A DNA stretch of 64,000 nucleotides. Source: Bradyrhizobium sp. ISRA464 (lineage in GTDB: Bacteria; Pseudomonadota; Alphaproteobacteria; Rhizobiales; Xanthobacteraceae). This document shows, in pieces, positions 36,970-44,135 of this stretch (position 1 is its first letter; each line of letters starts with the position of its first letter). Made by a program: the position numbers and the translations under genes. The DNA is taken from assembly GCF_029910095.1 (NCBI RefSeq), contig NZ_CP094526.1, forward strand, positions 8,260,501-8,324,500, read 5' to 3'. The notes under the pieces were generated by a model that made no database searches, was not told the DNA's origin, and was given only the letters and a program-made list of their open reading frames with translations.

Positions 36970-37033
36970 CTTGCGTTGACTGGCTACCCCGATGCTCTGA
37001 TGCGGCGACACGTCGCCAGCCGGTCAACACAAG
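36970..37033. promoter_or_regulatory. Inverted half-site pair A (putative operator) between BKACE and solute-binding protein genes
   Basis: CTTGCGTTGACTGGCT (36970-36985) and AGCCGGTCAACACAAG (37018-37033) are inverted and match at 14 of 16 positions, 32 bases apart. The same half-site, in the same arrangement, occurs at 44068-44135. Both lie in divergent promoter regions of the acyl-CoA catabolic genes. A half-site of this length fits one AraC-family monomer, and an AraC-type gene lies between the two sites. Direct sequence observation; the role is inferred. Confidence 0.6.
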
Positions 37034-37111
37034 ACGGAAAGCAACGCAGCGCGTTAACTTTGCCGCGAGCAAAAGCCCGGCGCGACACGCCGGCATCGCG
37101 GGGAGAACGTC

Positions 37112-38335
37112 ATGGTCTCGATCAACCGGCGCACATGGCTCGCAGGCGCGACAGGCGCCGGCCTCACGGCATTCACTGGTCTCCGTCCCTCCTTCGCCGA
37201 CGACACGCCGGGCGTCACCGCGACCGAGATCAGGATCGGCAGCACGACGTCACTGAGCGGCCCGGTGTCGGCGCTCGGTGTGCAGGCGCGCTGCCAGGAA
37301 GCCTATTTCAGGATGCTCAACGAGCAAGGCGGCATCGCCGGCCGCCAGATCAAGTACATCTATTACGACGACGCGTTCAACCCGGCGAAGACGGTCGAGC
37401 AGGTGCGACGGCTGATCGAGAGCGACAACGTCGCCTTCCTGTTCAACATGCTCGGCACCGCGCCGAATTCGGCGGTCGTCAAATACATCAACGCCGCAAA
37501 GGTCCCGCATCTGTTCCTGTCGGTGAACGGCGACAAATGGGGCGACTACAAGACCTATCCCTGGACCATGGGCTTTGCGCCGAGCGCGCGCACCGAGGCG
37601 CAGGTGTTCGCCAAGTATGCGCTGAGCCAGAACAAGAACGCGAAGTTCGCGGTGCTCTACCAGAACGACGATCTGGGCAAGGATTTCGTCGCCGGCACCA
37701 AGGACGTGCTGGGCGAGCGGTTCGCAAACCTGGCCGTGGCGGCCTCGCACGAGGTCACCGATCCCACGATCGATTCCCAGATCGTCAGCTTACGCGGTGC
37801 CAGTCCCGACGTGCTGATCTCGGGCACGACGGCGAAATTCGCCGCGCAGTCGATCCGCAAGATCCACGAACTCGGCTGGAAGCCGATGCACTTCATCGCC
37901 AGCGGCGCCGCCTCGATCTCCTCGACCATCGCGCCGGTCGGCTTCGACAAGGCGCAGGGCACGATCTCGTCGGCCTATGTGAAGGACGTCGCCGATCCGA
38001 CCTGGGCCAATGACCCCGGCGTGAAGGACTTCGTCGCGTTCATGGCGAGGTACTTTCCCGATGGCAATCCGAAGGAAGGCTATAACCTCTATGCCTACAC
38101 GGTGGCGCAGGTGCTCAAGATCGTGCTCGAGCAATGCAAGGGCAACTTCAGCCGCAGCAACATCATGGCGCAGGCGAACAACTTGAGGGACATCGAGGTG
38201 CCCACGCTATTGCCCGGCATCCGCGTCAACACCAGCCCGACCAACCACCACCCGCTGCGGCAACTTCAGTTGCAGCGGATCGAGGGCGACGGATGGCTGC
38301 GGTTCGGCGAGGTGATCGAGGGCGCGAATTTGTAG
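37112..38335 (+). CDS. ABC transporter substrate-binding protein (Peripla_BP_6 type) with RR signal
   Basis: Periplasmic type I solute-binding protein of 407 aa. The N-terminus MVSINRRTWLAGATGAGL has a twin-arginine-like pair before the hydrophobic stretch, so export may be by Tat. The mature part opens TATEIRIGSTTSLSGPVSAL, the branched-chain-amino-acid-type fold. YYDDAFNPAKTVEQVRRLIE and YPWTMGFAPSARTEAQVFAK are nearly the same as in the paralogue at 45902. Start ATG 37112 follows GGGGAGA. No transporter membrane genes adjoin. Divergent from the BKACE unit with the operator-like pair A between, so its ligand is probably the substrate of this catabolic island. Confidence 0.88.
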   Translation: MVSINRRTWLAGATGAGLTAFTGLRPSFADDTPGVTATEIRIGSTTSLSGPVSALGVQARCQEAYFRMLNEQGGIAGRQIKYIYYDDAFNPAKTVEQVRRLIESDNVAFLFNMLGTAPNSAVVKYINAAKVPHLFLSVNGDKWGDYKTYPWTMGFAPSARTEAQVFAKYALSQNKNAKFAVLYQNDDLGKDFVAGTKDVLGERFANLAVAASHEVTDPTIDSQIVSLRGASPDVLISGTTAKFAAQSIRKIHELGWKPMHFIASGAASISSTIAPVGFDKAQGTISSAYVKDVADPTWANDPGVKDFVAFMARYFPDGNPKEGYNLYAYTVAQVLKIVLEQCKGNFSRSNIMAQANNLRDIEVPTLLPGIRVNTSPTNHHPLRQLQLQRIEGDGWLRFGEVIEGANL

Positions 38336-38365
38336 GTTTGAAAAATGCGAGTAGGCGGCCCTCTT

Positions 38366-38508
38366 CACCTCTCCCCTTGTGCGAGAGGTCGGATTTTACG
38401 CGCTAGCGGAAAATTCGGGTGAGGGGTTCAGGTCCCTCGATGGACCGCAACCCCTCACCCGGATTGCACCTGCGATGCAATCCGGCCTCTCCCACAAGGG
38501 GAGAGGCG
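38366..38508. repeat. Palindromic intergenic repeat (CACCTCTCCCCTTGTG type)
   Basis: Outer arms CACCTCTCCCCTTGTGCGAG (38366) and CCTCTCCCACAAGGGGAGAG (38487). Inner arms GGGTGAGGGG (near 38420) and CCCCTCACCC (near 38451), plus GGATTGCA/TGCAATCC. It lies between the convergent solute-binding protein and AraC genes. Confidence 0.8.
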
Positions 38509-38537
38509 GATCTACGCAAGCAGCTGCCGCGCGAGAC

Positions 38538-42675: not shown

Positions 42676-42710
42676 TGTGTTCTCGCGTTTCCTCGTCGTC
42701 TCGCTTTTCA

Positions 42711-42831
42711 CCTCCCCCTGAAAGGGGAGGTCGGCGCGCTCGGCAACGCCGAGCGGGCCGGGTGGGGGCCAAACTGGCAGTCGGACTCGCGGCTTGACCC
42801 CCACCCTGCCCTCCCCCTTTCAGGGGGAGGG
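42711..42831. repeat. Palindromic intergenic repeat (CCTCCCCCTGAAAGGGGAGG type)
   Basis: CCTCCCCCTGAAAGGGGAGG (42711-42730) faces CCCTCCCCCTTTCAGGGGGA (near 42810). Inner arms CGGGTGGGGG and CCCCCACCCT also pair. It lies between two acyl-CoA dehydrogenase genes of the same unit, which it may partly uncouple. Confidence 0.8.
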
Positions 42832-42875
42832 ATCGCAGCCGTCGTCCAACTCGACCACAACCCCTCCAGCTTCGT

Positions 42876-44012
42876 TCAGAGCCCCATCTGCCGGCTCGCA
42901 AGATCCTTCATGATCTCTTCGGTACCCCCGCCGATGGCGTTGACCTTGACCTCGCGGTAGATGCGCTCGACCTTGACGCCGCGCATGAAGCCGGCGCCGC
43001 CGAAGATCTGCACCGCCTCGGAGGCGCAGTAAGCCATGGTCTGCGTCGCCTGATTCTTCATCATGCAGATCTCCGCGACCGGGCTTTCGCCCTGGCCGAG
43101 CCGCCACGCCAGCATTTCCAGCATCGCCTGCGAGGCCGCGACCCTCTGCGCCATGTCGACGATCTTGTGTCTGATGACCTGATGCAGCGCGATCGGCTTG
43201 CCGAAGGTCTTGCGCTCCTTGGCGTAGGCGATCGCCTCGTCGACGCAGACGCGGGCATAGGCCGTGCAGCCCGCCGCCATGCCCATCCGCTCGCTGTTGA
43301 AGTTCTGCATGATGATCTTGAAGCCCTGCCCCTCCTCGCCGATCAGGTTCTCGACCGGCACGCGGCATTCGTCGAAATGAAGGGTTGCGGTGTCGGAGGC
43401 CCACCAACCCATCTTCTTCAGCTTGGTGCGGGAGAGGCCGGGCGTATCGCCCTCAATCAGCAGCAGGCTGACGCCGCCGGCGCCCTCGCCGCCGGTGCGC
43501 ACCGCGACCGTCAGATAGTCGGCGCGCATGCCGGAGGTGATGAAGGTCTTCTCGCCGCTGACGATGTAATGATCGCCGTCGCGCCGCGCCCTGGTGCGCA
43601 GGTTGGCGACATCGGAGCCGCCGCTCGGCTCGGTGATCGCGAGCGCGGAGATCTTCCGGCCCGACAGCACCTCCGGCAGCACGCGTGCCTTCACCTCGGG
43701 CCGCGCGGCGCGCGCGATCGGCGGCGAGCCGATGGTGTGGCTCATCAGGCTCGCGCTAATGCCGCCGGCGCCGGCACGCGCCAGCTCCTGCGAGGCCACG
43801 ATCTTCATGAACTGGTCGGCGGCGATCCCGCCATATTCCTCGGGGAAGCCGAGGCCGAGCAGCCCGATCTCGGACGCCTTCACATAGAGCTCGCGTGGAA
43901 ACTCGCCCGCCTCGTCCCATTGATGGGCGAAGGGCTCGATCTCCTTCGCCACAAAGCGGCGCATCACCTCGCGAAAGGCCTCATGCTCGCTGGTGTAGAA
44001 CGGGTTTGCCAT
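42876..44012 (-). CDS. Acyl-CoA dehydrogenase
   Basis: FAD-dependent dehydrogenase of 378 aa, full length. N-terminal YTSEHEAFREVMRRFVAKEI, flavin motif ALAITEPSGGSDVANLRTRA, substrate/flavin strand MGWWASDTATLHFDECRVPV, helix FNSERMGMAAGCTAYARVCV, and C-terminal QIFGGAGFMRGVKVERIYRE followed by GGTEEIMKD, which holds the likely catalytic glutamate. First gene of the leftward dehydrogenase unit, directly after the operator-like pair B. Substrate unknown; short/branched-chain type by length. Confidence 0.92.
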   Translation of the reverse strand: MANPFYTSEHEAFREVMRRFVAKEIEPFAHQWDEAGEFPRELYVKASEIGLLGLGFPEEYGGIAADQFMKIVASQELARAGAGGISASLMSHTIGSPPIARAARPEVKARVLPEVLSGRKISALAITEPSGGSDVANLRTRARRDGDHYIVSGEKTFITSGMRADYLTVAVRTGGEGAGGVSLLLIEGDTPGLSRTKLKKMGWWASDTATLHFDECRVPVENLIGEEGQGFKIIMQNFNSERMGMAAGCTAYARVCVDEAIAYAKERKTFGKPIALHQVIRHKIVDMAQRVAASQAMLEMLAWRLGQGESPVAEICMMKNQATQTMAYCASEAVQIFGGAGFMRGVKVERIYREVKVNAIGGGTEEIMKDLASRQMGL

Positions 44013-44067
44013 CCGCCTCGCTCCGTTGATTCCCGCATCCGACGATGTCCGGATTTCTCATCGCTAA

Positions 44068-44135
44068 CTTGCGTCGAGTGGCTGTCCAGAGGCGACCGGG
44101 GTCCAGGCTGGCTGTTCCCAGCCACTAAACGCAAG
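44068..44135. promoter_or_regulatory. Inverted half-site pair B (putative operator) between dehydrogenase and ligase genes
   Basis: CTTGCGTCGAGTGGCTG (44068-44084) and CAGCCACTAAACGCAAG (44119-44135) are inverted and match at 15 of 17 positions, 34 bases apart. They agree with pair A at 36970-37033: all four half-sites read close to CTTGCGTTGACTGGCT. The site lies in the 218-bp divergent region between the leftward dehydrogenase unit and the rightward ligase/solute-binding protein genes. Confidence 0.6.

Follow-up and report, generated by a model that had tools for sequence, protein, structure and literature searches.

A conserved 16-bp half-site at the promoters of a Bradyrhizobium catabolic island, the probable target of an AraC-type activator

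Introduction

AraC recognizes araI half-sites of the form TAGC...TCCATA, MarA is small and lacks a sensing domain, and the Atu and Liu clusters for acyclic terpenes and leucine combine an HMG-type lyase with a LiuR-type regulator. In the parts of PMC4225500 and PMC5481539 available to us, XylS is described as an activator with two helix-turn-helix (HTH) motifs that reads 15-bp sites made of two boxes, the proximal site overlapping the -35 box by two bases; at the Pm promoter, with the orientation as we interpret it from the available part of PMC5481539, these sites are two direct repeats TGCA-N6-GGNTA whose GG box lies next to the -35. MarA, SoxS and Rob, according to the accessible portion of PMC6900184, act at class-II promoters through a single asymmetric, monomer-sized site that overlaps the -35 in a fixed orientation, MarA binding as a monomer. 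In this work, we analyzed a 64,000-bp stretch of the genome of Bradyrhizobium sp. ISRA464 (positions 8,260,501-8,324,500 of its single 8.46-Mb contig, NZ_CP094526.1; hereafter the window), in which a 16-bp half-site stands at the promoters of a catabolic island that also encodes an AraC-type regulator.

As judged by comparative sequence analysis, this element is a real and well conserved regulon site of what would be an AraC-type activator. The site is conserved and keeps its polarity and its position within the promoter, it travels with one subfamily of AraC-type proteins, and the recognition helices of these proteins are near-invariant. We estimate at roughly 85% the probability that the regulator encoded in the island binds the half-sites and, acting as a class-II activator, switches on both the island and a distant gene of the fadB/fadJ type. 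A literature search, which had subscription papers outside its reach, found no listed title or abstract opening describing the regulator, the site or the cluster; the RhizoBindingSites resource, which according to the part of PMC7674921 available covers two Bradyrhizobium strains, may list the motif.

Results

The window holds two outward-facing inverted pairs of 16-bp half-sites, at 36970-37033 and 44068-44135 (Table 1). An earlier note on this DNA had described four half-sites so arranged, with 32 to 34 bases between the arms; the arrangement is borne out and the distance is right for the first pair (32 bases), the second pair having 36. The gene layout that it gave for the two divergent regions agrees with Pfam, apart from the start of the right-hand ligase, which is probably GTG 44231, with AGGAGG just upstream, and not ATG 44171. 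In the direction of the gene the element reads YAGCCRSTNNACGCAAG, with the CAAG end on the gene side among the promoters listed. Across 81 non-redundant sites drawn from 259, a few of which are coding or chance matches, the conserved blocks AGC and CGCAAG stand about one turn apart, in an asymmetric two-box site of about 15-17 bp as in the AraC/XylS family; the monomer-sized sites that had been suspected correspond to this asymmetric element of 16-17 bp.

The pattern CTTGYGTYKASYGGCT, searched without mismatches, occurs exactly at the four island sites and nowhere else in the 8.46-Mb genome, and a pair pattern of 18 fixed bases is found at two places, with no control matches. In the window, a looser consensus at one mismatch or fewer gives five matches, the four island sites and one at 17039, versus none in the reversed window and none for 19 of 20 shuffles, the remaining shuffle giving two. 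When up to two mismatches are allowed, the half-site pattern falls to background genome-wide (109 matches, 58 + 51, versus 135, 65 + 70, for the reversed pattern). Confinement of the motif to these promoters, raised as a test in the earlier note, holds for the strict form in this genome and is too strict a description of the regulon, to which a fadB/fadJ-type gene probably also belongs (see below). The fifth match in the window (17039-17054, minus strand, CTTGCGCCGATCGGCT, one mismatch) is probably due to chance.

Conservation in relatives that keep the genes had been anticipated and is found: among 242 genomes of the genus, the strict pair pattern is present in 35, with one or two pairs each, and the looser pair in 188, the reversed controls giving none in either case. 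The arms are near-constant, while the spacers vary in sequence and length. Four similar copies inside 7.2 kb could also come from a repeat family or a recent duplication of promoter DNA, an explanation that is hardly credible since flanks as well as spacers differ between the copies, relatives keep the arms fixed while the surroundings drift, and the sites persist across families; the view that this is not a simple repeat family therefore stands.

The regulatory unit became apparent from 80 loci, each taken around a relative of the AraC-type protein and scanned at one mismatch or fewer (overlapping gene matches were dropped from the locus gene orders, so that the first dehydrogenase or ligase gene is missing in some). 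They hold 223 half-sites, only four of them inside a matched gene, and two of these four (L040 and L070) are dehydrogenase-promoter sites caught by overlapping alignments; two loci, L096 and L107, have no half-site at this threshold. Both arms are present in all 21 loci in which the first solute-binding protein gene (SBP1) stands divergently, and a lone site facing the gene of the beta-keto acid cleavage enzyme (BKACE) is found in 25 of the 55 loci without a divergent SBP1; four loci have no usable BKACE match. Relocated ligase, solute-binding protein (SBP) or dehydrogenase genes can have a site of the same polarity in front of them (e.g. L085, L089 and L109), and in L068, L069, L072 and L074 the sites lie far apart, at 161-669 bp over all. 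The unit is one asymmetric half-site per promoter and not the inverted pair, which the earlier note had taken as the shared element and which we rejected as the basic operator because lone sites occur in relatives. Inverted pairs would arise because two regulated one-site promoters stand back to back.

In the clade formed by L079, L095 and L097-L099, the dehydrogenase and BKACE sites have CGCGCAAG for NACGCAAG and the ligase site does not, which may mean that part of the regulon has drifted in concert.

The spacing of the pairs bears on whether the two arms work together. Over-all pair lengths gather at 43-48, 54-58, 63-69, 73-79 and 86-90 bp, with a best period of 10.9 bp; for the 123 lengths among the loose pairs listed plus one from L157, three 36-bp pairs being left out, a block-preserving shuffle gives p values of about 0.0004 (11 bp) and 0.001 (10.5 bp), both uncorrected for common descent. 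This series hints that two sites are kept on one helical face. It would suit a single operator in which one AraC dimer bridges two arms on the same face of the helix and controls both divergent promoters, as would the outward orientation of both pairs in the window. We consider this doubtful, given the partnerless BKACE sites in 25 loci, the four loci with far-apart sites, and the pair lengths of close relatives, which span 63 to 69 bp, more than half a turn; the length statistic, besides, is built on listed pairs only and takes no account of common descent. It is likewise unlikely that one dimer serves two opposite promoters whose sites lie whole turns apart (steps of about 11 bp, from 43 to 90 bp), with one of its arms left free at lone half-sites; such coupling is not needed because lone and far-apart sites occur.

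With one half-site per promoter as the preferred reading, the geometry of the promoters can be compared across sites. A TAnnnT element starting 21 or 22 bases past the site is found at 15 of the 81 non-redundant sites, versus 0.36 expected per position; assuming a spacer of 17 bp, the -35 would fall on the final two or three bases of the site. For the right-hand ligase, relatives most often have 94-95 bp between site and start codon (20 of 47 distinct). An asymmetric element that occurs once in each promoter, similarly spaced from the start codon, might also be read as a conserved core promoter for a sigma factor in place of a regulator site. This is highly improbable: the visible TAnnnT -10 lies separately downstream, the element is nearly confined to the cluster and is doubled as a direct repeat at fadB, and it does not show the GG-N10-GC core that is the consensus of sigma-54.

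The presence of an AraC-type gene at 38538, as proposed earlier, is confirmed by Pfam, with HTH_18 (58.7 bits) and HTH_AraC (40.0 bits) both above the cutoff; no NCBIfam model scores above its cut-off for this protein. The DNA-binding domain of AraC is its best solved relative by sequence (2k9s, E 1e-6). The AlphaFold model shows eight strands (15-87) and helices (96-142) at a mean predicted local distance difference test (pLDDT) score of 73.5, and the nearest structures found by Foldseek are the full-length AraC-family proteins ToxT, Rns and CuxR, with weak template modelling scores of about 0.3-0.5. The predicted N-terminal barrel and linker helices match those of the AraC/XylS family. In 22 aligned proteins (24 AraC homologues minus L155 and L156, which have an in-frame stop), the HTH half is 51-100% identical to the window protein while the N-terminal half falls to 28-31%; the recognition helices are near-invariant, and LS-SRF-HLF and GYPDSTHFSHS are kept almost throughout.

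Site and regulator also travel together. Within the genus, 185 of 225 genomes with the AraC-type protein have the loose pair, against 3 of 17 without it (Fisher p 7e-8, uncorrected for common descent). As for these three exceptions, in two the contigs, from incomplete assemblies, end before the araC position, and in one araC is split in two frames. A further 13 loci with an AraC identity of 40-59%, eleven from a second family of the order and one each from the genus and the family, hold 21 sites at one mismatch or fewer, versus a shuffle mean of 1.5 (n = 10, maximum 3) and one in the reversed sequence. In the second family, where AraC identity is 50-55% in ten loci and 40% in one, the cluster is rearranged (the usual order being araC, acyl-CoA dehydrogenase and GST, then the carboxylase, then BKACE), and the site is found before the carboxylase and, in stretches long enough to include it, before BKACE in most cases, two of these at two mismatches. 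The same 13 loci bear on whether another regulator of the neighbourhood reads the sites, such as the XRE-type protein at 48165-48935, whose gene lies near the island in many relatives. Stretches of up to 20 kb around these loci contain no match to it (E 1e-15), all 13 keep AraC, and 12 keep sites (two mismatches or fewer) near cluster genes; since the site is in addition asymmetric, 16-17 bp long and without an internal dyad, as a double-HTH monomer needs, a role for the XRE-type protein is very unlikely.

Farther away, in a family elsewhere in the phylum, seven loci with AraC identities of 39-48% hold ten sites, L173, a 3.3-kb piece, being left out of the count, versus a shuffle mean of 0.6 (n = 20, maximum 3) and none in the reversed sequence; about seven of the ten lie 26-108 bp upstream of a frame or matched gene, and the rest look coding or unassigned. 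In L157 (AraC identity 41%), the region separating BKACE from a dehydrogenase contains an inverted pair whose arms have three mismatches each.

Two observations concern the regulator gene itself. In L259 (genome G111), araC matches as two pieces in different frames and the promoter sites are kept; the gene is a pseudogene or the split an assembly error. A region of about 31 kb covered by L171-L173 (genome G1018, contig 11, about 285-316 kb) encodes three paralogous AraC-type proteins, all of this subfamily, and has several half-sites before different genes; it looks like a family expansion with one common DNA code.

Of the 31 genome matches at one mismatch or fewer, 27 lie outside the island sites, and 26 of these, all except that at 17039, were examined in their locus context. 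One of them, AGCTACTCAACACAAG at 1,210,549 (L005, 1210549-1210564), stands 29 bp before a fadB/fadJ-type gene with enoyl-CoA hydratase and 3-hydroxyacyl-CoA dehydrogenase domains (Pfam). In the loci of the closest relatives (L199-L228, the best 30 of 59 matching genomes, which lean to near relatives), this half-site is kept in 14 of 30. Seven of the 14 have a second direct copy 22 bp upstream, both copies being within one mismatch in five, and the second copy having two mismatches in one and three in one; in the other 16 loci the best match within 300 bp is no better than four mismatches. The regulon probably reaches this gene, far from the island, and the single regulon proposed for the island at 30.6-47.1 kb is accordingly supported as far as it goes but incomplete. 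The enzyme would supply hydratase and dehydrogenase steps that were not seen among the island genes scanned.

Several fadB-type loci without the half-site (L206, L207, L211, L212 and others) instead carry a palindrome-like GCGGAATTAAATTCCGCA in the 75 bp or so before the gene; the ISRA464 genome retains a degenerate trace of this sequence, which is possibly the operator of another regulator. The best-looking of the remaining matches, L006 (5575066, 35 bp before a 421-codon frame), was dropped, as the frame has no Pfam match and contains stops in 23 of 35 matches in relatives.

The island genes (Table 1) point to the kind of substrate involved. The carboxyltransferase is closest among solved structures to geranyl-CoA carboxylase (5ikl_B, E 4.6e-188), ahead of the methylcrotonyl-CoA carboxylase beta subunit (1.7e-143), and can be called geranyl-CoA-type by sequence relationship. 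Among the island genes scanned there is no cleavage enzyme of the HMG-CoA lyase type, BKACE being found instead. A carboxylase, ligases, three dehydrogenases and BKACE together suggest branched-acid catabolism. The island has two Peripla_BP_6 proteins and, among the genes scanned, no branched-chain-type permease or ATPase; their transporter partners are probably encoded elsewhere.

Table 1. Coordinates of half-sites, predicted promoter element and genes of the island in the window
Feature	Position	Strand	Description
Acyl-CoA carboxylase, biotin-containing subunit	30637..32625	-	Best solved relative methylcrotonyl-CoA carboxylase alpha
Acyl-CoA carboxylase, carboxyltransferase subunit	32622..34451	-	Best solved relative geranyl-CoA carboxylase beta
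AMP-forming acyl-CoA ligase 1	34238..35863	-	Pfam
BKACE	36028..36894	-	
Half-site 1	36970..36985	+	CTTGCGTTGACTGGCT; AGCCAGTCAACGCAAG read towards BKACE; leftward BKACE-ligase-carboxylase promoter
Half-site 2	37018..37033	-	CTTGTGTTGACCGGCT; AGCCGGTCAACACAAG read towards SBP1; rightward SBP1 promoter
Predicted -10 element, SBP1 promoter	37055..37060	+	TAACTT; starts 22 bp after the last base of the half-site
SBP1, Peripla_BP_6 solute-binding protein	37112..38335	+	Pfam
AraC-type regulator	38538..39356	-	272 aa; N-terminal cupin-like barrel, C-terminal double HTH (HTH_18); Pfam, AlphaFold, Foldseek
GST-like protein	39475..40131	-	Pfam
Acyl-CoA dehydrogenase 1	40246..41508	-	Pfam
Acyl-CoA dehydrogenase 2	41518..42804	-	Pfam
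Acyl-CoA dehydrogenase 3	42876..44012	-	First gene after half-site 3; Pfam
Half-site 3	44068..44083	+	CTTGCGTCGAGTGGCT; AGCCACTCGACGCAAG read towards acyl-CoA dehydrogenase; leftward unit of three acyl-CoA dehydrogenases and GST (and araC)
Half-site 4	44120..44135	-	CTTGCGTTTAGTGGCT; AGCCACTAAACGCAAG read towards ligase; rightward ligase-SBP2 unit
AMP-forming acyl-CoA ligase 2	44231..45772	+	Start taken as GTG 44231
SBP2, Peripla_BP_6 solute-binding protein	45902..47122	+	Pfam

Discussion

We propose that the 16-bp element would be the monomer-sized site of the AraC-type regulator encoded in the island, with one asymmetric copy before each regulated promoter, its CAAG end either next to the -35 region or overlapping it. 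Once bound to its effector, the regulator would act as a class-II activator, bringing RNA polymerase to the promoters of the catabolic island, and the remote copy of the site would bring the fadB/fadJ-type beta-oxidation gene under the same control. The effector would be of acyl type, probably an acid or acyl-CoA of the island route.

Several observations weigh against this proposal. Genome-wide, the lone half-site at one mismatch or fewer is at background (31 matches versus 36 in the control), and 26 such matches exist beyond the four island sites and the fadB-type site; because of this background, a lone 16-bp match is not enough to define a target, and conservation has to be tested for every candidate separately. 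In 30 of the 55 loci without a divergent SBP1 the BKACE sites are weak, with none at one mismatch or fewer; among 19 of these loci that were inspected, 18 carry a variant with two or three mismatches 56-109 bp upstream of BKACE (e.g. AGCGCGTTGACGCAAG and AGCTTCTCCGCGCAAG), and L077, with BKACE 5.3 kb away, has only a weaker-placed candidate with three mismatches. The -10 element is visible at its expected place in only 15 of the 81 sites, and a scan upstream of the four island sites found no second direct half-site, of which XylS dimers use two. By eye, no convincing site is present in the 118-bp gap upstream of araC, and autoregulation would therefore have to come from the operon promoter. 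Finally, 40 of the 225 AraC-positive genomes of the genus lack even the loose pair, and because araC travels with the genes, co-occurrence cannot fully separate the regulator from the operon.

What the analysis would add is a site, a predicted regulon and a one-site promoter design for an AraC subfamily that has no NCBIfam name, a predicted design that is conserved from Bradyrhizobium to other families while the sensing domain has diverged. An island with a geranyl-CoA-type carboxylase would be tied to a remote beta-oxidation gene, and the search for its substrate would narrow to acids needing both. The spacing series, for its part, provides a natural setting in which to test whether divergent promoters are helically coupled.

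Compared with described systems, the island resembles the Atu and Liu clusters in combining acyl-CoA dehydrogenases with a carboxylase of the geranyl/methylcrotonyl type, and differs from them in having BKACE, two ligases, a GST, two SBPs and an AraC-type regulator. The regulator resembles AraC in the LSPSR--HLF of its first HTH and in the cupin-like N-terminal domain of its predicted model, although a different ligand chemistry is expected. Its site, like the araI1 and araI2 half-sites, starts with (Y)AGC on the promoter-distal side, whereas its proximal box is CGCAAG in place of TCCATA, and each island promoter has a single site. The fadB-type promoter resembles XylS sites in layout, as seven relatives have a direct repeat of the site there, 22 bp apart (compare the available part of PMC4225500). 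At the four island sites, in contrast, direct repeats about 21 bp apart are absent, each promoter has one site, and TGCG-N6-GGCT, which looks like the XylS motif, is on the other strand with respect to the promoter, a polarity opposite to that of XylS sites. With respect to MarA, SoxS and Rob, the sequence of the site is different and the protein has a predicted barrel as N-terminal domain, but the one asymmetric, monomer-sized site of fixed orientation per island promoter is the arrangement described for these activators in the accessible portion of PMC6900184.

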